Shown one piece after another: positions 11,178 to 63,319 of a stretch of 64,000 nucleotides of DNA. How positions within the stretch are numbered: the first letter of the stretch is position 1; each line of letters opens with the position of its first letter. The notes below the pieces were generated by a model. It ran no database searches. It saw only the letters and a program-made list of their open reading frames with translations, and had not been told where the DNA came from. The stretch lies in assembly GCF_963678975.1 (NCBI RefSeq), contig NC_089278.1, positions 9,141,479 to 9,205,478 on the forward strand, read 5' to 3'. Origin of the DNA: Dysidea avara. Its lineage: Eukaryota; Porifera; Demospongiae; Dictyoceratida; Dysideidae. A program made the position numbers and the translations under genes.

Positions 11178-11218
11178 TTCTTATCAAGGTCATTTCAAAA
11201 GCCGCGTAAAACAATCGT

Positions 11219-11245
11219 CACGTGCACGTGCCAGCAAAGCACGTG
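11219..11245. promoter_or_regulatory. Three CACGTG E-boxes upstream of glutamine synthetase copy 2
   Basis: CACGTG occurs at 11219-11224, 11225-11230 and 11240-11245. Part of the copy 1 upstream sequence has been lost here, bringing the boxes closer together, yet three boxes remain. A regulatory role is inferred. Confidence 0.5.
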
Positions 11246-11290
11246 ATAAGCAGAACCTATAGGTGTATAAAATTTTTCATTTGGTAAAGA

Positions 11291-11468: not shown

Positions 11469-11655
11469 AAATAGTTGGTGAGATTCACTGAAGCCAAGGT
11501 CCAATGTTACAGGGTTACAAGGAAGTTAACACACATTCAGTGTCTAATTAGGATCCCCAACATAGAAATTTACAAATAAAGTTATGCAAATAAGTATAAC
11601 TTGTGTACTAGAGTTCTTAGTGGAATAAACACTAAACCTTCTTGCTCCCCTTAGC

Positions 11656-12560: not shown

Positions 12561-12739
12561 GGTGTGACAGGTTGAAAAAAATCTTCCTTATAAAATTGTG
12601 AATTTGGTAGCTGCATCAATTGCTCTAACAGAACATACACATTGAAGGTTTAAAGTTTGCTTTAAACTAATCTATGCAAGAACGAAAGCATGCAGGATTC
12701 TGACACAATTTCTAAGGAAAAGAAGATCCAAAATAAACA

Positions 12740-13512: not shown

Positions 13513-13542
13513 CCATCTTTTCACATTTTTATGCATGCGTAA

Positions 13543-14423: not shown

Positions 14424-14471
14424 ATGGGGCGTAGCTCTCGACTGTCATAACACTGCTACAAAACTTGCTTT

Positions 14472-14744
14472 ATGGAGATGTGGGATCTGTTAGACAAAGC
14501 CCTTCACTATGGTTTATTTCTAGGAGCAATATTTCAGATCATCGCAATTGCAGCGATAGTTGTTATTCCTCCCAAAGACACAAAAGACATAGAAGAGCAT
14601 GAAGAGACTTTAGAAGAGCTAGCGAAGACCAAAAGCAGCAGTAAGCAAGAAAGTAAACAGCAGTCAATTGTTTTGTCACTGCGAAAAAGAACTAAAGATA
14701 TGCGTATGTGTGTGCCATTCATTCCATATTGTATAAATGGGTAA
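14472..14744 (+). CDS. MANBAL: MANBAL-like copy 2 with altered C-terminus
   Basis: Ninety residues. The first 76 follow copy 1 including the membrane segment YGLFLGAIFQIIAIAAIVV. A deletion of about 118 bases then removes the stop and basic tail, joining to former 3' UTR sequence so that the protein ends in a new stretch (MRMCVPFIPYCING). Upstream, most of the shared promoter is separated from the gene by a LINE fragment. The reading frame is open, but loss of the promoter and basic tail suggests a pseudogene in the making or a changed product. Confidence 0.65.
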   Translation: MEMWDLLDKALHYGLFLGAIFQIIAIAAIVVIPPKDTKDIEEHEETLEELAKTKSSSKQESKQQSIVLSLRKRTKDMRMCVPFIPYCING

Positions 14745-14872
14745 AGCTATACTGCTATTTCACAACCCCAATATACTAGCTTCAGGTGTATCTTATATCT
14801 AAGGGAGGTACTAGGCTGTTATAACTGATAAACAATAGCAATCATATGTACATATGTAAAAATATCAATACA

Positions 14873-32200: not shown

Positions 32201-32446
32201 GGTTTAGGTGCTACCAAAGTGAATGGGTGGCTCCAAGGGGATACATCTAGTATGATGGTATTGGTGTAACATTACAGACAGGATGACATTGAATGAGATA
32301 TTGAAATGGCAGCCACTGCAAATGCTGGCAATACAGCGACATAATTAATGATCTCAAGGATTTAAATTTTCATTATCAGACGAATATGAATGAATGAGAT
32401 GTATCGATATATGAATGATGATATTACAACCTTGGGAAGACCCCTA

Positions 32447-32480
<34 letters not shown>

Positions 32481-38400: not shown

Positions 38401-41400
38401 TAGCTAGCTACTGAGGTCTGTATAGTAGCTAACTAACCAATATAGTAAACAAACACTCGAACTTTGTTTATACAGCACTTCTAAGATGTAATATTGGTCA
38501 TTGTAGCTAGCTTCGGATAAATTATGAAAAATCATTTCAAAAACACATTGTTATTTTAATTTTTTCGAAAATTTAACCTTTTGAAAATTTCCCACTATAT
38601 TATATAGTTATACAACGGCCACGAGTGCTCTGCCTGATATAAACGCACGAGCCTGAGGGCCGTCAGGCCCGAAGGCAAGTGCGTTTATACAGGCAGAGCA
38701 CGAGTGCACGTTGTATAACTGTTATGTACCACTCACCTAATAGGTGGGGAGAGTCTCACAAGACAGCTGTAACACTTATAAAGGCCAGGTTTCTAACATC
38801 GATTGTGGGTAACCAAGCCAGACGTTGCGATGATGTTCTCCCTGCAGTACTGCAGCCACCTGAGATATTGAGAGCTAGTACGCTATGGGTTATATCACTA
38901 ACCTGCATTCGCTGTTCGACTCTCATCATGTAGTGCTCAGCATGCCAGCGTGCCATATAGACTAAGCACCAGACTAATCACCAGTGATTCTCTCGAGCGA
39001 AAAAAAGCAGCTAAATAGACGGTTTAAGTAAACAAAACCTAACTACTAAACGATACTAGTCTAATTCTTACTATTCACACTGGCTAAACTCGAATCTGGT
39101 GGCATGACAAAACTGGTTCCCACAATCGAACGTAAAGGTTAGTATTATTTAGAATATATTTGTTTTATTGAGTCATTGTCGAAGTGGACTACAGTTTAAT
39201 CTGGGCTAAGGTGGCACCAGACTAGTAAGGTGTAAAAGTACGTTTATATATATGTAGACTAGAGTTGTGGCCACCCGCGTTGGCTTTTTCGATTGCCATT
39301 GGCTGCTGTAAACATTATACGTATTGGTGACGTTATGGCCCACAATCGACCTTTACATGTCAGGCTATAAAAGAATTCGAGTGATCTGTGAAATGTCTTT
39401 CCTCCTATTAGGTGAGGTGTCGTAGTGGTCTTCGCCACCGGCACTTGTGCTATACTGCACAAAACCGCAGCCAGTGCAATATCTGTATATTGCACTGCGG
39501 TCAGTGCATTATAACTTATAATGCACTCGTTGTGGTCTACAAAACCGCAACCAGTGCGTTATAAGTTATAATGCACTCGCTGCGGTCTGCAGCAGTGCAA
39601 TATACAAATTATGGCACTGGCGGTGCCTTTGAACTGCCCACGCAGAGTGGTATATATATATATATTATATATAGTATCAGGATAGCCAATTAACAGATCT
39701 GCTGCATGTTAACACTGGTATGCTGTATTTTCTTCATACCACACAATATTGCAGCAGCAAAGTATAAAGTCTAAGCATGATACTTGGTCCCATTGAAATT
39801 GATAATTTTGAAGGGCCTGAAGTTAAATTTGAGTGAGATGAGCAAATGTAACACTGGTATTTCCTTCTTATTGCACAGCAACTTTGTAACTCTTACTATA
39901 ACACTATAAACAAAACAAAACATGTTCCAGTCCTATTTCCAGAGATCATGTGAACCCGATCGACTTTGCTGTGCTTGAGCATTCAGTGGCGAGATATGTA
40001 GAGAGCAAGTGGAACACAAGGAATGGGTTGGCTGCTTTTTGCCATTGCTCATCTCACTCATTATAAGCCTTTCATCAAATTAGGTCCCAAATCAACACTG
40101 GTAGAATTAAAGCGTAGAGAAAAGCAGCAAACCTCTAAGAAACAAGCATTAATGGTATACATCATTTTATCATGTCCAGCATGTCAGAATACATTACCTG
40201 GAACTGAACACACAAACAACCTTATCACTATAAACCCTATAGCTTGGCACCCATAAACAAAACACCAAGGTCACCACTACCAGGAGCCCATAAGTGCTGT
40301 GAGGCACCTTGTGGAGCTTATGAGCTCCTACTAGCATTACAAAAGCAATTGACACAAAGTGTTTTTGGAGGTCTAGCCAACAGCAGGTAACTAACCCAGG
40401 AATCATTCCTTCAGGCCACAGGCCAGTACACAACAAAGGCCACTAGATGATCACACAGGGCAACAACGACATGGGGCAAAGTCCATTTGTCAGACATCTT
40501 ACTATCCCCATCTCTTTCTGTGGCATAGCCATTGTTTGAAGTAGAACCTCTGGAATCCGTGCTCCAATCTGCAGTCCATAGTATGTCAGTCATGAGAACC
40601 CCATTCTCAGCTGCTGGTGTACTGAAAGCTCCACAGACTGAGTGGTGTGCCAACCATGAGAGGTAATTGCCTTGTGGTGTTGATGTAAGGGGTTAGCTCC
40701 ACTTGAGTGAAACTGACTGGTTTTGTCTTCATAGCGTCTTGAGCACTCAGTTTCTTGTCCCAAGTAAATGCCTGGGGGGTGCTCCAACAGTCTTCTTCTT
40801 CCATAGATAGGTGGATGCTATCTGGTCAATATAACCAAAGTCTTAGGTATAGTGCTTGGAGCTCTGACACCCTGTTAACACTCACAAGGGCCATTTGGTT
40901 GACAAGTCTATGACTCAGTTAGGGACAGGTCCCCAAGGTGTTGTGCCACCACTACATGCCCCACCCCCCAACCAGTACAAATCTAACAGTGTTGTGGATG
41001 GTCATGAAAATAAAACAGCTTTAATTTTAATGGAGTATACACTAGGTATAAGGCTAATTGGTATGACCATGTGACAGTACCTTGTAATGACATCATTTTC
41101 TTCCTTTTATAATGATCCTACAATAAGTTAAACATGTTGATAGCATTCTGAAATGGGTAATTGTTCCATCATGATGTGTGTACCATATAGGGTGTGGGTT
41201 GGGCACATCCAGACTACATCCCATTGATGATAGCTAGTATGGTAAGGTCCATACTGTTATGGTTGAGTTGTGTTATCACTCATCTCAGCTGGTAGGCAAC
41301 TGGGATCGATCATTAGGTAGTGGTACTCAGATGGCCAGCAGACTTGCTCAGGTGTGTGTGTGTATGCGTGCGTGTGTTGTGTGTGAGTGTCTGTTGTTGA

Positions 41401-43932
41401 ATAATATGATATTGTGTTCTCCATTTAGCATGTTGCTTCTGGCAGTTCTGCTCGTGGCTTCATGTCTTTCAACACATGCTACACAGACACTGGTTTATGG
41501 TTAGTGTAATGTACACAACCATGTGATGTGTATCTTTAATTATCAGGGGTATTTACTTTGTGGCTGATCGTATGCACATTGATGATTTTGTGTGGAAAGT
41601 TCAGGAGGAATGGTGAGGTTACTACTTTGTTATGCTCTGTCAATATGATGGTGTTCTGGTAGGAAACACATTTGTACACATGTGACAGAAGCTGAAGTTG
41701 CTAGAGCAAGGAATGTATTTAAAACCAGCCTCTTCATGCAGTTAGATGGTGTGTGTTTGTGTGTCTGTGCTTGTGTCTGCATCTGTGTAATAAGACCAGA
41801 GATAAAATTTGTGCATGAATTATAAGAGACATGGCAATAGGCTTTCTTTTGGTAACACTCTCCTAACAAAATGATGTTGATGATGTGTGTGTCAGTTGGT
41901 GGAGGTTTCTTCATACTAATGACCAATGTGATGAGGTCCCTAATACAGGATCGGTGATCATATGAGTGAGATGAGCAAATGTAACATAAGGGTGCATGCA
42001 CCCTTGGCATGAAATAGAAGCTTGCTTATAAAAATAATATCCATTGCAGCATATCCTTCACCTAATGGAAGTCACAGGTTTGTGGGACTTGACATGAAAT
42101 TCTCCAGCCTACTTATACAGCCATTTTCTCATACTGATGAAGGCAGTCCATTATGCAGAACCGCTTGTCCCATGGAAAGGGTCCAAATTTGGTTGCATCC
42201 CCACTTAGGCTAAGCAACCTAAAGAGCATGTCTTCTGCTTTTACCATTATCTCAAGGTTTGGCTTGCAGATACTACATAAACATAACCAACTTCCATCAT
42301 CTTGCTGCAGTGTGGCAGACTAATTCACTATGAAGCCCAGTCAAGTGACCTCTTGAGCTGGAGTACTCTACTGTTCCAACCCACTTGTCTCACTAGCCAG
42401 TTACCTGTCTTGACGACTCTTGAGCCATCAAAAGCAGATAATTGGCCCTGTCTTCTTGACTTTACATGATTTGTAAGGCTTAAAGCTACTTTTTCCAGGG
42501 CAGCAACTAGAATCTACAAGATTATGTATGGAAATCACCTAATTTTAAATGACAAGCTTTGAAGTACAGCTTGTATAAGAATAGTTGAGCTGTATTTTGT
42601 AGCTGGTCTTAATTTTTCATGCTTTATTCTGGAATGTATCTGGATATTGAAATTCCTTCTCATAATTCCTGCAAGCCTAATTGGGAAAGATGCACAGCTG
42701 ATAACCGTTTAAGTCATCCGTTATGCATCCAGCTCTCAGTTTATTAAAGAGTACCCAAATATTACTGTAATCCTGGGATATTGTTAGAGAGGTCAACAAA
42801 AATCAGAGGTACAGTACTATTGCCTGAGCCTCTTGGACTTCTGAATAACTTTCTACAGAACAGATAAGCCCTACCAAGCCACCACCATCTCCATGATCTT
42901 TCTGGAATGTTGTAAAACATCTTGGAATAGTAATCCCCAAATTCAGGTAGAGTAAATTTCACCATACCATCAAGTTCAAGTGCTGAACCTTCCACTGGCT
43001 TTCAGGAATGCTTTTGGAGTAAAAAAACTGAATAGGATTTGATCATCGGTATAACAGTACAGTAACTCCTGTTTTGGCATCATGAGTTTCAGGTTGATCT
43101 CGTTGCAAGTTATCTTGGTGAAATGTTGTGAGAGATATTCCTAAGGCTCAATGGTGCTATCTGTTCATATGTGACAACATGGTTTGGGTGAGCTTCCCAG
43201 AAGCACACTAGGACTGAAACAAGCTGCTCTGTCTCCCATAAACATGTCACCTCACAGGGATGACTCAACCTCTCCTCAAACCCTTGCGGTGTTCTGAAGG
43301 ATGTTGTTGATAACATTGCCCTACCAGCCACCAGATTCTTTCCATCGTCTGTTGCTTCTCATTTTAACACTGCTGATCTTCAAACTCCTCAGCATTAAAT
43401 ATCAACCAGTCTGAGGTACAAAGGACTTGTATGAGCAATCCATGTAGTTGCAGATGTGTTTTAGCTGTTTACAGCCTTACTGTATTTTATAATGATTCAT
43501 AGATAACATAGCCCCTGAATCATCCTCTGGTATGTTTGTATAACCTGATCATCTTCATTGTGTACAGGCTCTACACCAGTGTGTGAAGACATTGGAAGGT
43601 AACTGTGCTGTGTATATCTTGCTACACTTTTGATCTCAAACCATAGACAAATGCTGACGTATGGTAGAAGAATTCCTCTTCCAGAGTTAGATTATCGTAT
43701 TGAGGTAACAGTGAACTGTTTTGAGTTGCTTAACACTTCTGTATATGCAAGCAGCAAGTAGATGCCAAGGCAGTTAGAGACGTAATGGCCAGATATTTGA
43801 GGGACAAATCCCCAACAGTAGTGGCAATTGGTAAGCTGAGTATTGTCATATCTTTGTATTAACCACTTCTCTTTTTCAGGTCCCATAGAACAGTTACCTG
43901 ACTACACCCACATTAGAGCCAACATGTCATAG
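29231..43932 (+). CDS. PMPCB: Mitochondrial processing peptidase beta subunit (PMPCB-A)
   Basis: This is the catalytic subunit that cuts targeting peptides in the mitochondrial matrix. Nineteen exons: 29231-29287, 29341-29400, 29448-29537, 29585-29671, 29777-29906, 29964-30055, 30986-31092, 31148-31227, 31317-31413, 37830-37883, 41191-41241, 41289-41351, 41429-41499, 41547-41612, 41663-41748, 43568-43598, 43647-43704, 43755-43830 and 43880-43932. The N-terminus [19 protein letters not shown] is a basic targeting sequence. The M16 zinc motif is present as HFLEH, with the distal acidic segment in [74 protein letters not shown] and GPIEQLPDY match human PMPCB in order. Introns 6, 9, 10 and 15 are swollen by repeats; the smaller ones stay near 50 bases. 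Confidence 0.95.
30056..30985 (+). other. PMPCB-A intron 6
   Basis: This is a 930-base intron without coding signal. It has paired copies of the TGCTCTATTAGAGTA motif at about 30715-30755 between T-runs, and palindromic TGTCAGATC-type sequence near 30250-30295. Confidence 0.5.
31432..31764. repeat. Near-perfect foldback palindrome in PMPCB-A intron 9
   Basis: Arms of about 150 bases read ATGTACTAGTAAGAGTAAAT inward and are answered by ATTTACTCTTGGTACTAGTG at the far end, with few mismatches. The centre is near 31590 and holds the pair TCTAGCTCAGA / TCTGAGCTAGA. Transcribed RNA would form a long hairpin. It is probably a foldback transposon. Confidence 0.8.
31880..32440. repeat. Unclassified interspersed repeat with GATA run
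   Basis: This starts with a short GATA microsatellite (about 31888-31902) and continues into AT-rich sequence without an open frame. The layout resembles a LINE 3' end with a simple-repeat tail on the minus strand, but no reverse-transcriptase motif was identified. Confidence 0.4.
32445..36660 (-). mobile_element. Nearly full-length CR1/L2-like LINE in PMPCB-A intron 9
   Basis: ORF1 (35432-36427, 331 residues, open) has a PHD-type zinc finger ([25 protein letters not shown]), a coiled-coil-like segment and an RRM-like C-terminal half ([17 protein letters not shown]). ORF2 follows with an AP endonuclease ([23 protein letters not shown]) and reverse transcriptase (32607-34052, 481 residues open; [38 protein letters not shown]). 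ORF2 is broken by about three shifts, near 35430, 34800-34630 and 34400-34100. The 3' end is an AAT run (32450-32480 on this strand). Orientation is opposite to PMPCB-A. The long open frames suggest recent insertion. Confidence 0.9.
35432..36427 (-). CDS. LINE ORF1 protein with PHD finger
   Basis: The 331-residue frame starts [15 protein letters not shown] cysteine/histidine finger spans about residues 24-82 ([23 protein letters not shown]), typical of ORF1 proteins in CR1-group LINEs. A heptad-like segment follows (about 83-105), then a conserved block with VVVYGIKE and CFRLGKF around residues 165-215 and a lysine-rich end. It probably coats LINE RNA. The frame is intact although the partner ORF2 is broken. 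Confidence 0.82.
   Translation of the reverse strand: MTTTPRSKRKRPPPNSPGDSDATICPICLDPIIDATKDAEGQEAIYCESTCNAWIHRQCAGLSQTLYKVYQDGDDPFYCPHCRLAIQEQQLHELTSAIDSLKKEVTDLKAESPQPKKIVGITQHIIPEPQLITSEPSTSKSQSTPSPNNKHVAVPDNPIDRKFNVVVYGIKEKPTGTPRSARTKSDIDCCVHILKEANNDITEQSIRDCFRLGKFDSTRTKPRPLLVKLSRAFDVNTILYNRSKIPEGTQVKPDMSKEEKLREQLLLKERWSLISSGTDKKHIKIRGTKIYVKNQIHGELVDSTFVPKSRSEASNTSNSNSTMEVVTPTSQ
37214..37530. mobile_element. hAT MITE with TAGTGCTGGGCGAT terminus
   Basis: The element begins TAGTGCTGGGCGATA at 37222 and ends with the near-complement TATTGCCCAGCTCTA by 37519. ATTGTGGC (37214-37221) and ATTGTGGT (37523-37530) look like an eight-base target duplication with three extra bases at the 3' end. 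The inside is AT-rich with CGATA-type repeats. Confidence 0.72.
37950..38596. mobile_element. Inverted-repeat element in PMPCB-A intron 10
   Basis: The ends AGTAGGAAATTTTTGAAAGG and the complement of CCTTTTGAAAATTTCCCACT pair over about 30 bases, flanked by TA-rich sequence. No transposase frame is present. Confidence 0.65.
38606..39645. repeat. Cluster of strong hairpins and inverted repeats
   Basis: A hairpin of about 115 bases (38606-38722) pairs GTGCTCTGCCTG with CAGGCAGAGCAC and GTTATACAACG with CGTTGTATAAC. Then ACTCACCTAATAGG (about 38730) pairs with CCTATTAGGTGAG (about 39405), enclosing about 690 bases. From 39450 to 39610, repeated units of the type CAGTGCATTATAACTTATAATGCACT form further hairpins. 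No coding signal was seen. It is probably one or more foldback DNA elements inside PMPCB-A intron 10. Confidence 0.65.
39650..41190. other. Remainder of PMPCB-A intron 10
   Basis: There is a TA microsatellite at about 39652-39672, then decayed sequence with only short open frames and no recognised motif. The string GAGTGAGATGAGCAAATGTA near 39832 recurs near 41963 in intron 15. Confidence 0.45.
41749..43567. other. PMPCB-A intron 15
   Basis: This 1.8-kb intron has a GT-rich simple repeat at its start and shares a 20-base string with intron 10. Short open frames on both strands show no recognised family; a decayed transposon is possible but unproven. Confidence 0.4.
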
Positions 43933-44412
43933 GGTGTTAATTGAAGACTGCATTAATCATACAGAATATAGTACATGTTTATTTGTGTATATTTGTACTG
44001 TGTTATCTGTTGTATCCAATAAAGCACACAAAATCAATAGTGCAGAACAAAACATGCCTATACAGTAATGAAGGACAGGGTATCGTGACTATAACAACAT
44101 TACTTTATGTGACTCCTAATTCATATTAGTACTTTACAGTGTCCAGCACTGAAGGTCTGACAGCAACATGTGCTGCAGCCTTTGGATTATCCTAACCTAA
44201 CAAGAACTGGAGACTTTTGTAATGATTACTTAACTTAGCAAACAATAAGGTGAAACAGAAAAGAGCCAAAGAAAGGAAAAAAAATCCCTCCTACCCCAGG
44301 ATTCAAACTGCAGGCCACCCAATGTCTAGTCAAGCGCCACACTCAGTCTACAGGAGGGATGGATTTTCTTCCTTTAAACCTAAGTATTTATTCTTGTACA
44401 CTACGGTACAAA

Positions 44413-44469
44413 ATGGCTGTTGTAGGGTTGCATAGATTTGGTGCACCACTGATTCGCCCGACCAGGAAG
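44413..44469 (+). pseudogene. PMPCB: Orphan PMPCB first exon with partial promoter
   Basis: This encodes [19 protein letters not shown] followed by GTAAAC, nearly the same as exon 1 of PMPCB-B. A decayed copy of the PMPCB promoter lies at about 44090-44135, separated from the exon by an inserted stretch of about 260 bases. No second exon is found before the PMPCB-B promoter. It may be a leftover of a third tandem copy; it could in principle splice to PMPCB-B exon 2. Confidence 0.8.
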
Positions 44470-47400: not shown

Positions 47401-48083
47401 TCGATTGTGGGTTTCGAACCTTCTGTATCGTCTTGACCCTTGACCCACTGTAAGAGCTATTTAGTGGCCTTGACCGTTGACTTACAGTTTGACCGCGGTC
47501 GCAGATCTACCTACAGCAAGAGCCTGAGTGACACCCCTTGCCTATCTAGTCTACCTATTTCCTAGCCATATCACCTGTGCTGTCTACTCTGTAACAATAA
47601 TGTACATACCATTGTGTCTGAGCATGGTCTGAGTAATTGCCGATTCCTGTCGAGTTCACCTGGTCAACTAAACTCCAAATAATGCCTTCATTTAGTAAAC
47701 CTACGAAATACGAAATGTTGAGTTAAGTAGCCTTTATTATCTCTATTAGCTAGCTATGAACTCACAAGAAAAAGAAAAGAATCAAAACCAGGTAACTACT
47801 TGCCTGGCTAGGCGCTTCGCTGTCATAAGGGTGCGCTCCAACGAGAATCAGAATAGACTACTCGAGTTTGGATAAAAACCCGCGTTTCCAATCCCGGGTA
47901 CGTAGTATATATAATCTAAAATTTAGATTTAAGATTAGGTACTGGGCAGTCAGCTCAGCTGGTTTGCAAATGGTACAATCAAATACATAATCTATGATCA
48001 AGTACAAGGTGTCATTTCTTGAGTAACTATAGCAACGTTATTTCACGTGACTCCTAATTAATTAATGCGCTTTACGATACAAA
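44470..48083. other. Spacer between the orphan exon and PMPCB-B
   Basis: No gene is recognised. Apart from the inverted-repeat element at 47055-47537, the stretch is AT-rich with short frames only. Confidence 0.5.
47055..47537. mobile_element. Inverted-repeat element with GTAGGTAGATCTGCGACCGC ends
   Basis: Ends of about 45 bases pair: AGGTGTCAC, then CTGTAGGTAGATCTGCGACC, against the complement at 47490-47537. Further in, CTTGACCCTTGAC repeats occur near both ends. The middle holds a short open segment (47310-47355, MPVGALKHLRDPYF) directly followed by GTGAGT, which looks like a first exon with a donor site. No transposase is present. Confidence 0.75.
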
Positions 48084-51000
48084 ATGGCCGCTGTAGGGTT
48101 GCATAGATTTGGTGCACCACTGATACGCCCGGCCAGGAAGGTAATGATGAACCATGGCTTGAATAGTTAATTTAGCGACTGTTCACTTAGCTGTTGTTAC
48201 CAAGATGGTCTACTGCCGCAGGAGCCGCGCAGTCTCAAGAGGTATTGTGTTCTCGTAAAGCCAATCTTTTGTGTGTGCGTGGGTATTAAAAAAAGTGTCT
48301 GGTATAAACCTTCGCCAATTTTGGTGGCAGGCTATATTGAAACGTCTCACGTGAGACTGCCCTACAAAATACTATGCACCTATCCATATTATCCCCCACC
48401 TGGGGGAAAAGGTGGGGATTTGACTTTTAAAAAATCAAATTCTCCACCCATGGGGGCAAGACTAGTGGTCAAATCCCCACATACTATGGCTACAGTACAA
48501 TTTAGGAAATGGGTTAGTTTGAAAGTACAGTCAAATGTCCCAGAATTTCAAATCAGATACAGGCCATAATCCCCTAGTAATTCTGGGAGGGGGATAGTGG
48601 GGCTTAATATTGATAGGTGCATAAGAGTAAGACTAAAAAGGTAGTCCTGGTTACCTTAGCCAATTAGCTATACCGTTGGGCAGTAAATTTTCGTGGATTA
48701 CTAAAATGTGGTAAACTCAGTAAATTTTGTGGAACAAATTTTTGTGGTTTAGACATTGATCTCCATACAACTTGTACAAGAACTACAAAAGATTTAATCT
48801 TCGTGGATAAGACGTCCACAAAATCCACGAAAATTTGTACCCTACAAAATTTTCTTGCCCTACAGTATTTATTGTCTTTCTTCCACCCTTAGCAGGCCTG
48901 ACTTGGCATTAGTTTCTAATAATTGCATCTGTTTGTTCGAACTAACTATCCCTACCAATACCCAGCAACATCTTTTGGTTGCTAGAGCTTGGAAGGAAGA
49001 TCGATATAGCTGTTTACAACATGACCTTCAGCTTTTTGGCTGCTCTGTTATTCTGAGATTGGTCGTTTAGGCTGGGCACATTGCCCAAGTGGCTAATGCT
49101 TATGAAGTGACAAAGAAGACTACAAGATTCCTGTTTGAGCAGGCTGCTTGCATTGCTGTCCCCTTCTCATACAGGATTTTTAATTCTAGAGCCTCCCCGG
49201 GCTGGTATTGATCTATTGGTTTGAGCATGCTATAATCATTATTTTTGTATTGTAATTTAATAGTGCAAGTCTTGCCATGGCTCCTGTACTGTCCACCCTG
49301 TGGGTATCAGTGCATGGTACCCCCCTGTGGGTATCAGTGCATGGTACCCCCCAAGTCTAAATCCCTGATTTTATGTAGTATATTGTTTTAACAAAATAAG
49401 ACTTCTCATAATCAAACATCTGATGTGTGACTGCCCCACAAAATACTAAGAGTAATAGTCTTTACACCATATTCCCTAACCACCCTCTTTTAACCCCTGT
49501 TATCATACATAGGATCAAAAGGTTTGGCTGGCATTCCTCATGTTTCCTTTGAAATGGCCACAAACTTTTGTACAAGTTATTTCTGTTAGTGGCTGAATCC
49601 ATTTATTTTTGACAGCATATTTGGGTATATTGTTATGAATTGGTGATATAATTCAAAACATCACGAAATGGTTCAAAGACAAACCACAGCACCAAAGAAC
49701 ATTCTGAGTATGTAAGTGAAAATTGGTGATTCTTCGAAGCATTTGTCTGAAATACATACACTAAAAATGACTCGCCAGGAATTAAACATAGAAACCAGCT
49801 TGTTTCCCTAACTTTCGCCAACAAATAATTTACAATGTATAGATACAACTTAGTAACATTTCAGCTCAACAAAGATGATGTTTACTTCACAACCAGTGCT
49901 ACAAACCAAAAACAGTACAAGAAGCACCTCTGCAATAAATCCACTGACTACAGATGATTCTTCGCTACCCTGTAGGGTTTGATTTAAGGTAGTGCATTAT
50001 GGGTTTCAGTGTTGACTATCACTATAGAAATGGGACACAAAGAAGGATCCCTCTCAGATGTAAAATTACCTTAGTGTGGTAATGAACTTGTCCTGAAATT
50101 ATTTGCTATGAAAGTTTGTTACCTTGCGAGTATAGCTACGGTTCAAAAGCATGTGTATGTTGTCCTTTAGCCATCATATAGTTGGTGTGTGTTGTACAGA
50201 GGTTACTAAATGATGTAAGCCGTGAGGGATTATGGCATAGTGTCCTTAATTAGGAGGTGGAGTGTCCATTAACGGAGGTCTGCAACCGCCAAGTCCCTTC
50301 TTCATTGTCTGGTGAAGTTATTCAAAATATGCTACTGGTACCTTGCTTGCTTGGTTAAAGATTTAGCAGTGCTAGGACCTCGAATTGTTGATGGGTGGAA
50401 GTTGATGCGATTCTATGCCCATATAACAAATCTGCTGGGGTTACAACATGTGATGGTCCTCCATACAAGTACGTGACCGGTCTATTATTCAGAGTTGATT
50501 TGACCTCTGTCAGGATTGTAGCCAACTCATCAAACATTAGTGTGGACTGTCCAATGGTCTTTCTCAGACAACGCTTAACACTTTGAATCAGCCTCTCCCA
50601 ATAGCCCCCCCACCAAGGGGCCTTCTCCGCAATGAATCGCCATTCAATCTGTTTACTGGTCAAGTGATTACAGACTTCTGCTTGAGTGGCGATTTCTTTT
50701 GAACAATGCTTGAACGTTTTGGCATTGTCAGACGTAATCACCAAAGGCAAACCTCTTCGTCCACAAAATCGTCTGAAGCCAAGCAAGAATAAGGTGGCTG
50801 ACAATTCCCTGGTTAACTCCAGATGGACAGCTCTCGTCAAGGCGCATGTAAACAAGCAAACATACACCTTGCAGCTACATTCCTTACTGTCTGGGCTACG
50901 TACGTAGAGTGGTCCAGCAAAGTCAATTCCAGTGGTGCTGAACAGTGGAACCTCACTGACTCATTCAGCTGGTAGATCTGGTACTATTGGGGAGGGAAAA

Positions 51001-54000
51001 GGTTTCCCATCATATTGTCTGCAAATATATGGATTTTTGTATCACCTTCTTCACCACAACACGACCCTTAACAATCCACTATCATTCCCTCACTGCTGCC
51101 AAGGTCTCGGGTGTACCATTGTGATGCACCTCATTGTGTCTCTCCATCACCAGTAGCTCTGTGAATCGATGCTTAGTGGGAAGCAAAATCGATTCTTCAT
51201 ACTGGTTGACAAATCTGACTGATTTAAACGACCCTTACAGCAGATGATCTGTTCATCATTCGAAAAGAGTATCAATTGCCCCTTGTAATGTACAGTGTCT
51301 CCAGCTTGGTACTCCTCCGTGAATGTGTTTCTTTGTATTGACTTTACCCAACTGTCCTCAGCCTCCTTCCATTCAGCGGCAGTTGGATCCTTCATGTTAT
51401 TGTCTCGAACTTGTTTCCTGGCCTTCAGGTAAGCTACAAATCTCAACACTAATGAAGTTATTCTCAACAGCCTCAGCTTGAAATTGTACCTTTCAATATC
51501 TATGACAGAGTAAAAGTGCTCAGAGCAGGTGTCAATGATGGCAGAGAAAGTACAATATCTGGAGGAGGATTTCTTACTTGTTCCTCCTGTGCTTCAGATG
51601 GATCATATCTTGTAGGCATATTCAGCCACGCTTCGGAAGATTTCTTCAAAAATTCTGGTCCTTCCCACTGCAACTTATTGTGGACTAGTTCCCTGACTCT
51701 ACAAGATCTAGAGGGGAGGTCTGCAGGGTTATTCCCACCTGGACAGAATATGCACCTGTCAAGCTCTGTATCTCTTGTACACAATCTCTTGTTGTTCTGT
51801 AACCAACACAAAACTGTAAACGAATCAGTCCGGCAATATGTGTTTTGGTCCAAATTAGGAGCCTTACAAACACGGGTCACCAACCCCGGGACAAAATCGT
51901 GGTTCCCAGCAGTTACAGTCGAGGGATAGTTTGAGTCTTCAATGGAGCTACTCTTGTCTTTGAAGAAGTTAAACACACACTCACTTGTCGATCTTCATAT
52001 TCAGTATGCAAGTACACAACAGCAGCATATCCTTGCACCGAAGCATCACTGAATCCGTGTAACTAACTGTTGTGAAATAATGCAGTGCTTCTGTAGCTCA
52101 AAATAACATTGAGGTATACTTATCTATGAAATTGCTTCAAACTCCTCTGTCAGATGTTGCCATTGGCGTAACAAATGCCCCTCCAGAATGGAGTCCCAAT
52201 CAAGTTTACTCTTACACAAAGTTTGGAACAACATCTTGGTTCCAATAACAAATGGGCTCAGCAACCCCATTGGATCAAACACCTTGGCAGATATTTGTAA
52301 AATAGAGTGCTTCGTTGGTGGCAATGACTTCATAAAATCAGTGACTTTCTTAACATCAAAGTGGAATGTGTCGAGCTCTGCATTCCACTTCACTCCTAGC
52401 AACTTCACCTCCTGTGTCTCAGACTCTTCTCCTACTGTGGCATTGATTTTCTGTTGCAAGGGTTTAGAATTAGTTTTCTACTTGCATAGATTGAACCCTC
52501 CTTGCATTATTAACTGCCGTCTCTTCTGGTAGAGGTTGAAACCTTCTTCAGTTGTCTGCGCCCCACTCGTGAAATCGTCCACATAGAATCCACTGACCAA
52601 ATTCTCAGCTATATTGGGTTCAGTCATCAGGTAGCGAGTGACATCTTGATGAGTTGTTTCAGCCAAAATAGCTGGACTAGGGGTTAGTCCGAACATTAGA
52701 CGACAAAAACGGTACTGGACAATCTGTGGATCAGGTAAGTCAATATCATCAAACTACAGAAACTTAAGCATGTTACGGTCATCGGGTTTCACTACAATCT
52801 GATGAAATGCCTTTTCCACGTCAGCCACAATACCAATAGGGTAACTTCTACATTTTATCAATATGTCCAAAATGTGAGGAGTGGTATTGGGTTCCTTCTC
52901 AAGGCAATCATTTAATGACAGATCCTTCAATCCATCCTTAGCTGACCCATCAAACACAACTCTTGTGTTTGGTAGTTTCCTTGTCCTCACGTATCACTCC
53001 ATGATGTGGCAGGAAATGGCATCCATTTAATTTCTCCTGATTCTGTGGGACTTGCTCTATGATACCATCATTCAGCTGCTTACGAAACACTCCATCATAG
53101 TCCTATAAAATTAATTCATTCTTCAGTAATTTCTTGTGTAATTCATTCAGCCCACCCACACACATGACAATCAGATTGTGGTCTGGCTTTAGTTAATAGT
53201 TATACTTGCTGATATATACACCTGGCTGCAGGTGTATTGTCTGTTGTAGTGTTGTTTATATTCATCTTTGTTGTGTTGTAATTACTTAGTGGTTTTTTGT
53301 CATGCACACAATCAATATAAGTAAGTTTGTAAGTCTATAGCAATAATTTGAGGTTTGAGCATACAGATATTGTACTAGGAAATCCATGTAGGCCTCCTGG
53401 AAGTGAATATCAATATGTGGGAAAATCCCTACTTTAATATTGAACAGATGTTGGTAACACACTAATGTGGGGACACATAAGTATTGTTGTCATTCATATC
53501 TCTTGCTTCACTACTTTTTATTGCTAGAATCCTACTTCATTTAATAATTTTAATTTCACTAGTACATAGTAATCATTCTTTATACAGTATGGTGCCTAGT
53601 AGCTGGCACAGTGGTGGTCGCCAATCCTTCTTGTTTATTTCTAATCTCAACTTGTCTGTTATTGCCAAAGCTAAGGGATCACATCCATATGTAGTAGGTT
53701 ATAACAGCTACCTAACATAGTCATGAGACAAGAGCTAGATAGTGATTTTTGATGAAAAGCTTGGGGGGAAAAAAAACTGTCCCAGTTAAAATATTTTTGG
53801 GTAAAAAAAAATGCATGAATGTAATCACATTTTATTTTAATTGAAAATTTCTGATTTAACCTATATTCCAGACAACTGGATTAAAATGCATGTCTGGTAT
53901 AAAGCATTGTGACTTTTGAAGTGTCAGTCCTATGGTAATAATTTCTAGACCTACAGTATCTTTGTGGAGGATAGTAATATATGACAAGTGCCCAAAAAAA

Positions 54001-57000
54001 ATTTTGGAATTTTCAACTAGAGTAGGGTGGACCATATATAGCACATCGATAAAAAGTACTGAAACAAACTGGAGTAGTGCATGATCACAGTAAAACAATA
54101 AGAAGCGTTATATCCCTAAGATACCATAATGGAAATGCACAGTAGGAATATAATACTTCTTATTGTTTTACTGTGATTTAATATCATGCACTACTCCAGC
54201 TTGTTTCAGTACTTTTATCGATGTGCTATGGTCCCTACTCTAGTTGAAAATTATACTTGTTCGTTAACTTTTTTTGTAAATAATAATTATGACTGGTGAA
54301 CCCACACATAGCACATCAAAATTATGCTGTGCACCCCAGCTATATCACTTATCATCTGAAAAGTGAAGTATCCATTACACTATGTTGTCAGCTATGTTCA
54401 GCCGGTTAAACAGCATTACGAATTAAGAACAGTTCAACAAAAAAGCACCTCTGTAATCAAAGTAGCCACTATGAAAAATACGGACAATTTCTGTTATGAA
54501 GGGAAGCCATCACATGCTACCACCAAATCGACACCTTTCACTGTCAGCAAAGATGAATGGGACACAAAGGAGGACACTGGTAAGTCCATGAAGAATGCAT
54601 TGTACGCACTGCAGTATGCCGAAAGGCACGTGTCCAGCTGAAGCAACATCGAACAGTGAAAAAATCAAGCCCGTAGCTTTAGCTGTTATCGAGTTATGCT
54701 TGTCTGAAGGTATCAGTCAGCCATTAAATTCTGTAGCAACTAGTTGAAAGCGTTTTGGGTCAATCTGAAGGCTTGTTTTGGTTTTACCTAACCAATACTG
54801 CTTCATCATCATCAGGGAAAGGTGAGGCTGGTATTTGCATGATGTTTTTCATGGGCCACACCCACACCTTTGTGGTCCCTAAACTATACGGCACTATCAT
54901 ACTGTATGATACTGGGACACCATATTTGAACTTATCCTGTAACGTTAGTATAGCAGTTTCATGCAAATTATTTGATTCAACTCCTGATAATAGTTCCTAG
55001 TACTAGGGGTGTTGTGTATGTTAGCAGTAATGGATTGTGTCTTATTGTAGGTACCTGTGAGTGATCCTGAGACAAAAGTTACACGTCTCAGTAATGGCTT
55101 AACTGTTGCGTCTCAAGATAATAAAGACTTTCCTACTTGTACAGTGAGTGTGACCCTCTATCTTATAACATCAACTACACTTATCATGACAGGTTGGACT
55201 ATGGATTGACAGTGGAAGTCGATTCGAAACACGTGAAACAAATGGAGTAGCCAATTTTGTGGAACGCATGCTTGTTAAGGTAAAACCATTTCAGTCTACA
55301 TGGGAAACCACATCCTACCACAGTTACAATTGTGTGGTGATTACAATGTTAGGGGACAAAGAGACAAGAGGTAAATGCCTACACATCCAGAGAGCAGACT
55401 GCATATTATGCTAGAGTGTTGCCTAAAGATCTCCCTCAAGGTAAAACACATTGTACGTGCGTGTATTATAATTTTGCCAACAGCTGTGGACACATTATCT
55501 GATATGGTGCAAAATTCCACACTTGATGAAAAGGAAATAGAAAAAGAACGGGGCATCATTTTGAAGGATATTCAGGTCAGTTATTGTTGTTTTGTAGTAG
55601 AATTAAAGCACGGTGCATAGTTTGTACAATAGCTTGTGGTGTGTATACATGACAGCAACATTGACATGGTACAAGCAAGTAAAGTAGTAGAGTGTGTAAC
55701 TAGTGACAGAGTCTTTGTACTGTACTATAATGGCCATATACTGCTATTTAACCTTCTCAGTTTCTTTATGATGTCATTTATCGCTGTCTGCATGGTTCCA
55801 CTAAGTCATGTGTGTGGTTAACCATGCCTTGGTTACATACACAATTCATTAATGCTACCATTAATGAGCATTATGGTATAAGATTGCTCACCTTAACTTG
55901 CAGAAAATACATGCAGTATCATATCACACAATTGGCACATATGCTTAGTCAGCTGTGAACGTAATCCTGATAAAATTACAATTGATCATGAGTTCTTCAG
56001 TAGTCAGCCATACTATGAATTTGATATTTACACCTTACTGGTGGATGATCTGTGCTGTCGCACTTTATTATTCATGTCAAGTGTGTTGTGTAATTTGTAG
56101 AAATTACAAACAAAAGTTGAAGAGGCAGTCTTTGAACATCTCCACTTCATTGCTTACCAAGACACTCCTATGTCCTGGCCCACACTAGGCACATCAGAGA
56201 ATGTTGTGTAAGCTCATTATTGTGATGATGTCTGTACAGTTAGTTGTGTTGTTCTGTAGGAATATCAGTCGTAAAGATCTTGCGGATTACATCTCCACTC
56301 ACTACACTGCTCCTCGTATGGTGCTGGCTGCAGCTGGAGGTGTGTGAGCGTGCATACATGTGTTGGCTGTAATCTAAGCTTCAATGATTGTGTATGTTAG
56401 GTGTGAACCATGAAGCATTAGTCTCACTTGCTGAGAAGCGCTTCTCTGGCCTGTCATCCAACAAACATGTTGAAGTTGCACCATGTTGGTACACTGGTAG
56501 TGAGGTGTGTTTGGTTTGTCTGTTGTCATATTTTGCTGTATGTATAGTCAGTATGTACTTGTTTTATAGGTCAGGATCCGTGATGATGACATGCCATATG
56601 CCCATGTTGTGCTTGCTGTGGAGGTAAACATCCCAACATGAGTACTGTATGACATGAGCATGCATGTAAACACTGGTTTAAAAAAATCTTTTTTGCACAA
56701 ATTCCAACAGCCCAGTTGTGCATGTCTAATTCAATCTTAGAGGTCCTCTTTTTGAGACATTTTTCATGCTGTGCTATATCCCGAGAAGGGCAACTAAACT
56801 ATGTCACTCCCACAGCCTCCCATTGTTAGCAGTCATTACAGGGACACTTCACTATGACCCACCTTTTCTGTCATTTTTCTCAAGAGAAAGAACCTGGAGA
56901 TCCATTTGTGTTTACCCTACGATAATCTGTAATTGATCTATACTGCAAGCTTAGGATAAAAATTATTTCCTAACAGAAAGAGCAGTTCCCTAAAAAAATA

Positions 57001-58426
57001 ATTCAGATATGTTATCATTTGAGGCAATGCCAATATTCTGATGCAAAAGCATGGATGACTGTGCAGTGTTAACTTGTGACCTTATCTTTTGACAAGGATG
57101 GCATAATCAAAAATCATTTCTCACCATAAATAGAAATGTACATGATACTATAAATAGTAACAGTGTTAACAAATGTCCAAAGTAATTACACAACTTAATA
57201 TGGTACTACCAATATCCTCTTTTTGACGGACGTTCTCGTCCTCTGCATATCAGTGTTTACTGGCAGTCATGTGCTCCTGCTACCACCCATAATAATATTT
57301 GATCTCCCTACAGTTGTATTGTTAACATCAAAGCAGTGTGTGTTACTGTGTAGGGTGTGGGCTGGACGCATCCGAACTATATTCCCATGATGATAGCCAG
57401 ACAGGTTTGATCCATATTGTAATGATCGAGTAGTGTACCTGTCATCTTAGTTGGTGGACAACTGGGACCGGTCTGTGATATATGATACTAGTTCTGGTCA
57501 CTTTCCTAACAGATTAGTACGGGTTAGTGTGTGTGTGTTTGCTATTTTGCGCGCACATTTCATGTTTTTCCTTTCAGAATATTTCTCCTAGTAATGGTGC
57601 TCGCAGCTTCATGTCTTTCAACAGGAGTTACACTGACACAGGCTTATGGTTAGTGTGATACAACTACCATATTGCTCATAACATACACTAGCATTTCTAC
57701 CCAACTTTTAATTTTTCAACAAGTGTATTTATGTTGTTACCTTAATGTCAGGGGTATTTACTTTGTGGCTGATCGTATGCACATTGAAGATTTTGTGTGG
57801 AACATTAAGGAAGAATGGTGAGGTCATTTTGTATCACACTCTAAGGAATTGTATGTGTCAGGCATCGTATACGTACCGGGGCGTCTCATGCTGAAGTTGC
57901 TAGAGCAAAGAATGCTTTAAAACAGAACCTCTTGAAGCAGTTAGATAGTGAGTGTGTATATGAGTGGAGGTAGTATCTATGTATATGACTATATTAGCTG
58001 TGTGTAGCTTGTAATCACGTGATTCAAATATCTTCCACAGGTTCTACGCCAGTCTGTGATGACATAGGAAGGTAACTACTACATCTTGTATTTCTCTCCT
58101 ACTATACTGTGTTACTTTCTTACCATAGACAAATGCTTGCATATGGAAGGAGGATTCCTCTTTCTGAGTGGTACGATCGTATTGAGGTATCAATGATTTG
58201 TGTTATCATATGGTCAGGCACTTTTGTATGTTTGAATAGCAAGTGGATGCTAAGGCAGTGACTAAAGCAATGGATGAACATATGTGGGACAAGTGCCCAG
58301 TAGTAGTTGGGATAGGTGAGTCAGGACCTGTAACTGCTCACTCTAATAATCTGTTCATTAGGTCCCATAGAACAACTGCCTGAATACATTCGACTGAGAG
58401 GTGACATGAAATGGAGGAGGTTATAA
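48084..58426 (+). CDS. PMPCB-B, paralogue lacking the zinc motif
   Basis: Nineteen exons match PMPCB-A one to one: 48084-48140, 48191-48241, 55051-55143, 55193-55279, 55353-55440, 55484-55575, 56101-56207, 56260-56339, 56401-56504, 56570-56623, 57354-57404, 57451-57522, 57578-57648, 57752-57817, 57862-57947, 58041-58071, 58129-58186, 58240-58315 and 58362-58426. All splice phases agree and I find no stop or shift. Exon 4 reads ANFVERML where the active copy has AHFLEHMA, so all three conserved residues of HxxEH except the glutamate are lost. Exon 5 lacks 42 bases (14 codons, the [10 protein letters not shown] region). It keeps a basic N-terminus ([19 protein letters not shown]). It may act as a structural paralogue, as the inactive core protein UQCRC1 does in complex III, or may be in early decay. 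Confidence 0.85.
48375..48621. mobile_element. MITE, family copy 2 (TGCACCTATC ends)
   Basis: This is the same family as 22332-22652: it starts TGCACCTATCCATATTATCC, has the G-rich AAAAGGTGGGGATTTGACTT interior and ends with the complement TATTGATAGGTGCA. It lies in PMPCB-B intron 2. Flanks contain TA on both sides. Confidence 0.8.
48855..49440 (+). repeat. Decayed retroelement-like fragment
   Basis: The piece [20 protein letters not shown] followed by an ARAWKEDRY-like segment resembles the RPD...ELTVP endonuclease-like motif found in some retroelements. The following part (about 49130-49400) matches the repeat at the start of the window (about 170-370). A short tandem repeat of about 28 bases (GTGGGTATCAGTGCATGGTA) occurs near 49300-49350. 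The family is uncertain. Confidence 0.5.
50340..53110 (-). mobile_element. BEL/Pao LTR-retrotransposon fossil in PMPCB-B intron 2
   Basis: On the minus strand the pol parts appear in the order reverse transcriptase, RNase H and integrase, with BEL/Pao-type sequence. The element is broken in roughly half a dozen places and 5' parts (gag, protease) and both LTRs were not recognised. It is probably an old, truncated copy. It lies opposite to the host gene inside a 6.8-kb intron. Confidence 0.85.
53110..55050. other. Remainder of PMPCB-B intron 2
   Basis: No gene is recognised. A 92-codon open frame at 54363-54641 has no known motif. A foldback repeat lies at about 54010-54250. Confidence 0.45.
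54010..54250. repeat. Foldback repeat in PMPCB-B intron 2
   Basis: The arms pair TTTCAACTAGAGTAGGGTGG and AAAAAGTACTGAAACAAACT with their complements near 54190-54250; between them ACAGTAAAACAATAAGAAG pairs with CTTCTTATTGTTTTACTGT. The arm length is about 95 bases with a loop of about 45. Confidence 0.75.
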
Positions 58427-58887
58427 TAACCAAATGGGACTATCATATAGAACATTGTACAATATATAATATTTAATAGGCATTTTTCTAAATGTAGTTA
58501 GTTGGGTTGTACCACTCACTGGCAGTCCAACATAGGCCGGATAAAAATTTGTTTCTCACCCTCCCATTTCGTTAGTTTCATTGACCAGATTTGTTTCAGC
58601 ACAGGGGCTAGCTTGTGTGCTAAATTAGAGGTCTTGGGTCTGTCCATTGATGGTGTACTAAAAAGTAGCTACATGAGATTCACCAAACATTACACTGTTA
58701 CTGAGGACCTGCACTTTACAGCTAAGAAGCCACAAAATCCTGTATTATTATGTGCAGCAAATCTCATGAAATATAACTAAGTTGCAATGAAGTACACTAA
58801 ATATATCCACCTGTATTTTTGAACTGTTGGAAATGTACAATAAATGAAGTGTTCTGCAGTACAAATGAATCAAAGACACTGAAGTAG
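58427..58887. other. Convergent spacer between PMPCB-B and the F-box gene
   Basis: This holds the 3' ends of both genes. An AATAAA signal for PMPCB-B lies near 58840, or earlier AT-rich variants may be used. No other feature was seen. Confidence 0.5.
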
Positions 58888-60976: not shown

Positions 60977-61543
60977 CTAGAGAATAGAACATCTTCGAGA
61001 ACGTTTACCCCTTTTCGACAACGCTGCACGTGTTGCAGCTTCAAAAACTTCTCTGACACCATCTCGCTTTTTTGATGAACATTCTAAGTAATGGTAGGCA
61101 CCAATTTTTTCTGCCATAGCTCTGCCTTGTTCTGTTTTGATAATGGGCTCTGACTTGTCAACAGTAGGATCGTTCCGTAAGTCTGATTTTGTGGCTACTA
61201 ACAGAAAAGGAACATTAGGACAAAAGTGCTGAACTTCAGGTGTCCACTTTGCTGGAATATTGTCCAAACTATCAGAACTGTCAACAGAAAAACACATCAA
61301 AATGACGTCGGTGTCTGGATAGGAGAGTGGCCGCAGTCTGTCATAATCCTCTTGCCCAGCCGTGTCCCACAATGCCAACTCAACACACTTGTTGTCCACC
61401 TCAATGTCCGATACATAATTCTCAAATACTGTGGGTACATACTTGTCAGGGAACTCATCTTTTGTGAACACAAACAAAAGGCAAGTCTTTCCACAGGCAC
61501 CATCTCCCACTATTACAAGCTTTTTTCGCAGGGGCCCCGACAT
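60977..61543 (-). CDS. Diverged Rho-family GTPase
   Basis: The 188-residue protein starts [20 protein letters not shown]. Switch I ([16 protein letters not shown]) and G3 ([22 protein letters not shown]) are those of RhoA-type proteins. The usual G4 NKKD is TKSD here (LLVATKSDL), and G5 SAK is SSK ([10 protein letters not shown]). The Rho insert region is a few residues shorter than in RhoA. The CAAX box is CSIL. An upstream in-frame ATG at 61564 lies in a likely 5' UTR intron, so the start at 61543 is preferred. It is divergent from RhoA at 62741, suggesting a local duplication followed by divergence. Confidence 0.9.
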
Positions 61544-62740
61544 GACAAAACCTATAAAAAACATTCAGATGTGCTTAACAGTGTAAAATGCAAGTAACAA
61601 GGTGTTTACTACTTCATTAACATAATAGTTTCCACCTTTATAAAATGACAACCTTGCCAAAGCTAATGAACAACAAATCGAGAACACGAAAGATGGCACA
61701 CAACTAGAAGTGGGTGTTACTTACCGTTTCTTCTTACCTTTTTTATTAAAATGCAATAGTAGTTTCGTAGATGCCCACACGAGCGCCCTATTTATACTGT
61801 CCTTGGAAAATGAAGTGACCTTGTTAGATAATCCTCGCGATCCTCTTCTGCCCGAATAGTTGCAGGCTTCCTTCCGTATCCTAACACCGTGACCGGAAAA
61901 ATCGTTGCTATTTTTAATACTCATGTTACTATTTTTAGCACATATAATCTATTTTTAGTATATATTTGGCACTGTGTACCTATTTATAGCAGCATCTAAA
62001 ATTAGCAACAAATTTTGCGCATGCGGATCCGTACTTTATTCCGTTTCTCACCTTCTTCAAAAGATTTGCAAGCGGCCGATCCTACTCAGAATAACGTAGA
62101 GTTGTGAGCGAGGATCCATCTTAAGAAGTTACAATTCTTTTACGCTGTGAGTTGTAACAACTGATTGTTGTATCGAAATTGTGTGTGTAAATCTTCATGT
62201 ATGGTTGCCATATATTTTGATTTTATTATTTTTATAGCATGGCCAGCCTTAATCAATGGTTCTATAACCATTTTACGTGGTGGTTTTATTGCGTGTTTTG
62301 TTTGCTATTGATTCTTTGAACAGCATTAATTTGAATCGCGGTCACCGCCTGGTACCAAGTACCCACCCTTGCGTTTACGTTCCATGTGGCGTGCTACTTT
62401 AAGGTTGTTCTGTTTTTATTGCGCAGGTTTTGCTTAACAGTCTTTTACATCTGAAAGGAATTCTTCCCAAGAACGTATTTGGAACTAGAAGCCATTGGTA
62501 ATGCTTGGGAAGATATTTAACAATGGTCGAGCCTTTTTTTCCCTTGGGAGCAATTTTAAATGCTTATGATTAATCTGGTAGCACAGTAAAATGATAGACA
62601 ACAACTTTATTGTTTGATTTTTTTGGTGTAAATGTGATGTAATTGTTAGAAGGAAATGACCATTTATTTAAACATAATATTTACACATGAATTTCATAAA
62701 GAGTGCAAGATTTATTTCATTGTTATTCTACAGGTGTATC
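61544..62740. promoter_or_regulatory. Divergent region between the two Rho genes
   Basis: Both genes appear to have a non-coding first exon. On the minus strand GTAAGT at about 61730 may join to the acceptor before 61550. On the plus strand GTGAGT near 62147 may join to the acceptor TTCTACAG at 62725-62732. An NRF1-like palindrome TGCGCATGCG stands at 62016-62025. The rest is AT-rich. Confidence 0.55.
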
Positions 62741-63319
62741 ATGACTAGCGTACGCAAGAAGCTTGTAATTGTAGGCGATGGTGCTTGTGGCAAGACATGT
62801 CTCCTGATTGTGTTCTCAAAGGATCAGTTCCCTGAAGTATATGTTCCTACTGTCTTTGAGAACTACGTCGCTGATATTGAAGTGGATGGGAAGTGTGTTG
62901 AGCTAGCTTTATGGGACACAGCTGGGCAAGAAGATTACGATCGGCTGCGTCCACTATCTTATCCAGATACTGATGTAATTTTGATGTGTTTCGCCATTGA
63001 TAGCCCTGACAGCCTGGAGAATATTCCAGAGAAATGGACTCCTGAAGTTCGACATTTTTGCCCAACAGTCCCTATTGTCTTAGTAGGGAATAAGAAGGAT
63101 CTACGGTTTGATGAGGCTACCAGAAAAGAGCTTACCAAGAGCAAGCAAGAGCCCGTAAAAACAGAAGAGGGACGTGCAATGGCGGATAAGATTGGGGCGT
63201 ATGATTTCTTAGAGTGCTCGGCAAAAACAAATGAGGGTGTGAGAGAAGTATTTGAAACAGCAACACGGGCTGCACTGCAGACGAAAAAGAAGAAAAGAGG
63301 AATTTGCACCTTGCTGTAA
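62741..63319 (+). CDS. RHOA: RhoA small GTPase
   Basis: The 192-residue protein [19 protein letters not shown] is very close to human RhoA. It has G1 GDGACGKT, the effector loop [18 protein letters not shown]3 [18 protein letters not shown], canonical G4 NKKD, the Rho insert helix ([19 protein letters not shown]), G5 ECSAK, and a basic tail KKKKRG with CAAX CTLL for geranylgeranylation. It controls actomyosin through ROCK and formins. The coding part is one exon. The start at 62741 is chosen over the in-frame 62687 because the splice acceptor at 62732 lies between them. Confidence 0.96.

Follow-up and report, generated by a model that had tools for sequence, protein, structure and literature searches.

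The core 1 subunit of respiratory complex III is a relative of the mitochondrial import peptidase. A passage of PMC12731061 places the mitochondrial processing peptidase (MPP) in complex III in plants and describes a separate soluble MPP in yeast and vertebrates, and a figure legend of PMC9291397 names one beta-side gene for Drosophila. Here, a stretch of 64,000 nucleotides from the sponge Dysidea avara (RefSeq assembly GCF_963678975.1, contig NC_089278.1, positions 9,141,479 to 9,205,478, forward strand; "the window" below) was analysed, which contains two PMPCB-type genes in tandem. Gene A is an intact PMPCB gene, and gene B (48084..58426, + strand) is a copy in which all three zinc ligands are replaced. 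That B is a catalytically dead paralogue of PMPCB, a pseudo-peptidase at the level of its sequence, is well supported, and B has probably been maintained in this state.

Four described proteins resemble B. Animal core 1, UQCRC1, is a relative of MPP-beta that is non-catalytic or nearly so and has the same C-terminal tail as B. It has lost the first His of the HxxEH motif, which a passage of PMC12731061 gives as YFVEH for the bovine protein. Unlike B, UQCRC1 still has its second His and third ligand as well as the 14-codon stretch that B lacks, and it forms a separate clade. Yeast COR1 is a non-catalytic core-1 gene that exists alongside a distinct, catalytic MPP-beta gene, much as B does alongside A, and in PMC9291397 it is listed on a branch different from that of human UQCRC1 and PMPCB. 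However, COR1 is far diverged (B against yeast core-1 chains, 1e-58 to 1.2e-55 among the best 60 of 77 matches), whereas B is a tandem copy whose synonymous divergence (dS) from A is unsaturated. MPP-beta (gene A; yeast Mas1, structure 1hr6) shares both M16 families with B, and gene A is the sister of B and shares its 19-exon layout. The three ligands are all present in A and the tail is absent, whereas B has no ligand and keeps the tail. MPP-alpha (PMPCA, yeast Mas2) is an inactive M16B half, as B appears to be. Its motif is tabulated as HxxDRx76D in a 2024 review (table in PMC11266112), so an Arg at the second and an Asp at the third ligand position are possible in an inactive partner subunit. 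By similarity B stands on the beta side: among the best 60 of 77 matches, E-values range from 1.4e-131 to 2.7e-74 for animal core-1/MPP-beta chains and from 1.4e-43 to 8.2e-30 for MPP-alpha chains.

Structure and active site of gene B

Gene B consists of 19 exons separated by 18 introns, all of which are GT-AG, and reads as one open frame of 462 codons plus a stop. The exon phases are those of gene A, and all differences in exon length between the two genes are multiples of three. No stop, frameshift or broken splice site was found in the 462 codons and 18 introns, in agreement with the first-pass annotation of this DNA, which had described B as a second PMPCB gene with frame and splice sites kept over 19 exons. 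The protein belongs to the M16 fold by its matches to Peptidase_M16 (PF00675, 7.8e-39, 133.4 bits) and Peptidase_M16_C (PF05193, 3.2e-35, 122.1 bits), for which the curated cut-offs are 22.3 and 23 bits; gene A also matches both families far above the curated scores. The N-terminus of B is basic and of the presequence type, with five R/K and one D/E in residues 1-36.

The zinc site of gene A is complete. H90 and H94 lie in HFLEH, and the third ligand, E170, follows 76 residues past H94. In B the motif reads NFVER and the third-ligand position is D154, 62 residues past R92 (76 minus 14). All three ligands are replaced, the third Glu by Asp, and the base Glu alone remains. A catalytic MPP-beta has HxxEH followed by a Glu 76 residues on, and B has NxxER and an Asp 62 residues on. 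Exon 5 of B shows a net loss of 42 nt against A, which removes 14 codons in frame beside the zinc helix. The annotation had recorded the changed motif and the missing codons correctly; it had noticed the two His changes and overlooked that of the third ligand (E170 to D154). Since the metal site is lost, catalysis should be lost as well. Bovine core 1 lacks one of the metal ligands and B lacks all three, which makes B a clear case of an M16 pseudo-peptidase by sequence.

Origin of the tandem pair

Protein trees were built from A, B, four MPP-beta chains and three UQCRC1 rows, which we take to be mammalian. An unverified human PMPCB sequence was included, and the trees were repeated without it. 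Of the structures in the analysis, 1sqb is taken to be bovine, 5gup and 9cg3 mammalian, 8q1b S. pombe and 8ab6 Yarrowia. A and B are sisters with support of 100/100 at full length and 100/99 when exons 8, 9, 10 and 14 are left out; the support is 99/97 when these exons and the human sequence are both removed. Both genes group with animal sequences, apart from the four fungal and 8zno MPP-beta rows (98/96). Since exons 17-19 of B look UQCRC1-like, orthology of B to UQCRC1 was tried as well. A clade of B with UQCRC1 was rejected by the approximately unbiased test (p-AU 0.0008, and 0.021 without the human sequence). These results support B as a tandem sister of A with an origin independent of animal UQCRC1, as had been proposed in the annotation. 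In the same trees human PMPCB (the unverified sequence) groups with UQCRC1 and not with A (93/89), although the alternative was not rejected (p-AU 0.066). If the grouping is right, UQCRC1 split off later than the split from the lineage studied here.

B has changed much more than A. In the tree the terminal branch of A measures 0.05 and that of B 0.45, and relative-rate tests with six outgroups, run without exons 1 and 2, gave more changes on B in all six (ratio 2 to 5, all p < 0.01), with B:A counts from 44:22 (47:24 with UQCRC1) to 72:15. Divergence is uneven along the gene, with a dS between A and B of 0.09 in exons 8, 10 and 14 versus an unsaturated 0.79 elsewhere. A permutation of codons showed that the similarity of A and B in windows spanning exons 8-9 and 13-14 is higher than expected by chance (p 0.0002 to 0.011, four window sizes). 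The excess similarity and the low dS suggest that exons 8, 10 and 14 of B were gene-converted with A, and because of their near-identity these exons carry little information on selection on B.

Gene conversion also opens another origin for B, namely that it is the true animal UQCRC1 orthologue beside PMPCB and was made A-like by conversion. This origin would account for the conversion signs and for the UQCRC1-like residues in exons 17-19 (IPLSEW, DKCP, the tail MKWRR), and B shares more derived residues with UQCRC1 than A does (7 vs 2 in a strict count, 11 vs 8 in a looser count that includes the presequence). However, the sister relation of A and B holds without exons 8, 9, 10 and 14, the clade of B with UQCRC1 is rejected, and B, given its longer branch, has few residues in common with UQCRC1, no more than it shares with other lineages. 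We regard this origin as very improbable.

No sponge PMPCB or UQCRC1 duplicate was reported in the literature titles or abstract openings among the matches listed. Viral contigs were also scanned and yielded 20 distant relatives, with 25 to 35% identity.

Constraint on gene B and its possible role

With exons 8, 10 and 14 left out, the pairwise dN/dS (omega) of A and B is 0.30 (387 codons, dN 0.237, dS 0.787; bootstrap 95% interval 0.22 to 0.41). A neutral B would be expected to give 0.5 or more. A fixed omega of 0.5 was rejected (p = 4.5e-4), and none of 100 neutral-B simulations reached a value this low in either of two settings. Neutral evolution of B over its whole history should have left about 21 stops, but the frame contains none (P(0) 6e-10). 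With simple values assumed for splice sites (72 bases) and indels (0.1 for each substitution), the 95% bound on the share of time since the duplication that B can have drifted neutrally is about 14% when stops alone are counted and about 6% when splice sites are added. The exons of A and B can still be aligned, while of the 13 short introns compared (18 in all) 7 are within 0.06 of shuffled sequence and 6 lie above it by 0.08 to 0.14. When the pairwise dN is divided by an A:B share of changes of 1:2 to 1:9 and dS is split evenly, which is not a direct fit, the omega on B is about 0.40 to 0.54. These data indicate that the constraint on B is real but weakened, neither neutral nor strong. The annotation had regarded B as maintained and had named a dN/dS near one across all exons as the sign of simple decay. 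The comparison of A with B that it proposed gives a ratio well below one, and maintenance stands in this sense; the constraint is relaxed, and exons 8, 10 and 14 do not speak to it.

The weakened constraint could also mean that B lost its function recently and is in early decay. Decay would fit the 2- to 5-fold excess of changes on B, an omega on B near 0.5, the loss of conserved residues in many parts of the protein and a 6.8-kb intron 2 with retroelement-like open reading frames (ORFs). Against it, B shows no stop, frameshift or splice loss, the time left for neutral drift is short, and one copy of a duplicated 821-codon ORF in the same window, in contrast to B, is already broken into four pieces. 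Early decay is unlikely. The element type in intron 2 is unproven, because neither of the two ORFs tested there matched a Pfam family.

The losses of B were located with 83 conserved columns, defined from 73 bacterial and 4 MPP-beta proteins. The bacterial homologues (best 80 of 377) were taken as 80 ORFs, of which 73 were kept and 7 dropped by a blastp filter at 1e-20; they were used for column conservation only. B has lost 24 of the 83 columns and A 9. In A the losses are 0/22 in the catalytic segment and 9/61 elsewhere, and in B they are 11/22 and 13/61 (p = 0.013 for B).

The C-terminal tail is kept in B. When the last 59 residues were searched, 34 PDB sequences matched at E up to 0.01, which we take to be chains from complex III structures. 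In 32 of the 34 the match runs to the last or next-to-last residue. The matched chains are named core 1, complex III subunit, MPP-beta or M16 protein, and one has no functional name. Yeast soluble MPP-beta 1hr6 is not among them. Full-length B aligns as far as residue 432 (of 443) in 1hr6, 437 (of 439) in 7rja_A and 453 (of 454) in 9fq7_3A. The TAG stop of A stands exactly at a TGG codon of B, and A therefore has no C-terminal tail.

Lineages differ in whether MPP-beta and core 1 are a single protein or two separate ones, which makes a split of duties the simplest account of the pair. The rest of B would then most likely have been kept because the protein is now structural rather than enzymatic. 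We tentatively favour, at somewhat below even chance, B as a kept pseudo-peptidase that acts as a core-1-like subunit of complex III, with A as the soluble peptidase. After a tandem duplication of PMPCB, B would have lost its metal site and been retained under weakened purifying selection, while A specialised as the soluble peptidase. The B protein would be imported into the matrix and fold as an M16B half-clamshell. Arg92 and Asp154, which stand at two former ligand positions of one shared metal site, may fill this site as an ion pair. B would then pair with a partner of the alpha/core-2 type as a structural, core-1-like subunit. Of the pseudo-peptidase proposed in the annotation, the maintained and catalytically dead protein stands at the sequence level, and its role in the cell is what we infer here.

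Several observations weigh against the core-1-like role. The clustering of B losses in the catalytic segment weakens to 8/19 (p = 0.07) once the deleted columns are excluded. Bovine UQCRC1 has lost just 4/22 catalytic columns (19/61 elsewhere). In the part of the protein beyond the catalytic segment, A and B differ at 25 of 98 highly versus 42 of 99 weakly conserved columns; the trend of differences with conservation is weak (rho -0.13, p = 0.02; rho -0.11, p = 0.052 when all 338 columns are taken) and therefore indicates a modest constraint, which is weak for a complex III subunit. The omega on B is high. An excess of UQCRC1-like changes in B is not clear, with 22/75 shared changes versus 12/79 to 22/84 in five other lineages, and this counts against B as a second UQCRC1 in detail. 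Two of the 34 tail matches stop short. The core-1 or MPP-beta chains 7rja_A, 9fq7_3A and 7tgh_3B are also outside the tail matches, so the absence of 1hr6 means little alone. Soluble human PMPCB keeps a similar tail in the unverified sequence used here, so the presence of a tail does not define core 1 and is suggestive at most. Of five MPP-alpha chains compared, four, all plant-type, have Arg at the second position but retain Glu at the third, and the remaining one has Val and Gln. The Arg-Asp pair is therefore not general in MPP-alpha.

The main rival is that B is a non-cleaving partner or decoy for MPP-alpha, which would form a heterodimer, perhaps bind presequences, and tune or compete with the peptidase formed by A and MPP-alpha. 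B has acidic E164 and E168 at the positions of E180 and D184 of A, which we assume to contact a presequence arginine. Substrate is bound along strand beta4 in MPP (a passage of PMC12731061), and the stretch that we assign to beta4 is kept in B; the Arg and Asp at two ligand positions equal the alpha-MPP motif tabulated in PMC11266112. However, a dominant-negative beta subunit would be costly unless few cells express B, the sequence gives no sign of tissue restriction, the proximal upstream region is common to A and B, and the third ligand is still Glu in the plant-type alpha chains. A decoy role is considered unlikely.

The core-1-like role may be extended, in a version that we hold to be doubtful, to a bifunctional MPP-beta/core-1 gene that was split anew in this lineage by complementary losses, with no separate UQCRC1 in the animal. 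In such a split, A would have remained the peptidase, with its complex III tail removed by a stop codon at a conserved Trp, and B would have kept the tail while its zinc site turned into an Arg-Asp pair of the tabulated alpha-MPP kind. If true, this would repeat, more recently, the event behind yeast COR1 and animal UQCRC1. To our knowledge, one gene with two jobs becoming two genes is known from very old cases alone. Because the exon layout of this tandem pair is intact, while one copy has a dismantled zinc site and the other a truncated tail, the split would become datable and testable residue by residue.

Gene A and the rest of the window

The coordinates of both genes and their landmarks are listed below.

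Coordinates in the window of gene A, gene B and associated features
Feature	Position	Strand	Remark
Gene A, intact PMPCB	29231..43932	+	19 exons, 472 aa
HFLEH of A	29645..29659	+	
14 codons of A (S104-G117) without counterpart in B	29792..29833	+	by alignment
Third zinc ligand E170 of A	30047..30049	+	
TAG stop of A	43930..43932	+	B has TGG (Trp) there
Orphan exon 1 copy	44413..44469	+	open frame, GT donor; 53/57 bases as B exon 1
B proximal upstream region	48030..48083	+	GCAACGTT, CACGTGACT, TTAATTAATGCGC common to A and B
Gene B, PMPCB-like	48084..58426	+	19 exons, all three zinc ligands replaced
B exon 1	48084..48140	+	presequence start
B exon 2	48191..48241	+	
B intron 2	48242..55050	+	6809 bp
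Retroelement-like ORFs in B intron 2	about 50355..52000	-	
B exon 3	55051..55143	+	
B exon 4	55193..55279	+	carries the altered zinc motif
NFVER replacing HFLEH	55253..55267	+	both His ligands lost, base Glu kept
B exon 5	55353..55440	+	42 nt shorter than in A
Net 14-codon loss point in B	55367..55368	+	between Q101 and E102 by alignment, which does not fix the exact break
B exon 6	55484..55575	+	
Codon of D154	55567..55569	+	third zinc ligand position (Glu in A)
B exon 7	56101..56207	+	
B exon 8	56260..56339	+	likely gene-conversion tract; 96% identity to A, 78 bases
B exon 9	56401..56504	+	
B exon 10	56570..56623	+	96% identity to A, 53 bases
B exon 11	57354..57404	+	
B exon 12	57451..57522	+	three codons longer than in A
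B exon 13	57578..57648	+	
B exon 14	57752..57817	+	likely gene-conversion tract; 93% identity to A
B exon 15	57862..57947	+	
B exon 16	58041..58071	+	
B exon 17	58129..58186	+	
B exon 18	58240..58315	+	
B exon 19 including stop	58362..58426	+	
B C-terminal tail MKWRRL	58406..58423	+	kept
First AATAAA 3' of the B stop	58839..58844	+	

Besides A and B, the orphan exon 1 copy was the only trace of the M16 family in the window (E up to 0.01), and no further exons were found after it. Upstream of it, 44085..44124 resembles the B promoter (82.5%), and the CACGTG of the promoter reads TATGTG there. The orphan copy may serve B as an alternative first exon, or it may be a remnant of unequal crossing-over.

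Intron 9 of gene A contains a long interspersed nuclear element (LINE)-like element (32607..36436, - strand) whose neighbouring ORFs carry reverse transcriptase and endonuclease domains and a weak PHD-type match below the curated score. The element may be broken, because its ORFs overlap in different frames. Nested, near-perfect inverted repeats that would form long hairpins were observed in intron 9 of A (31436..31755) and in intron 2 of B (54008..54252). Their arms are 91 to 100% complementary, of the type left by short DNA transposons.

A large tandem duplication joins 2025..9264 and 10055..17338 of the window. The two copies align in eight blocks with 87 to 98% identity, and the longest block has 96.9% over 2891 bases. 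It carries two ORFs like glutamine synthetase (named by eye) and the two copies of the 821-codon ORF, which has a Nischarin C-terminal PH domain and a PLEKHM2 PH-like domain. The pieces of the first copy lie in three frames with 80 to 99% protein identity, which reflects either decay or sequence error. Two ORFs like Rho-family GTPases, also named by eye, lie on opposite strands at 60977..61564 (-) and 62678..63319 (+).

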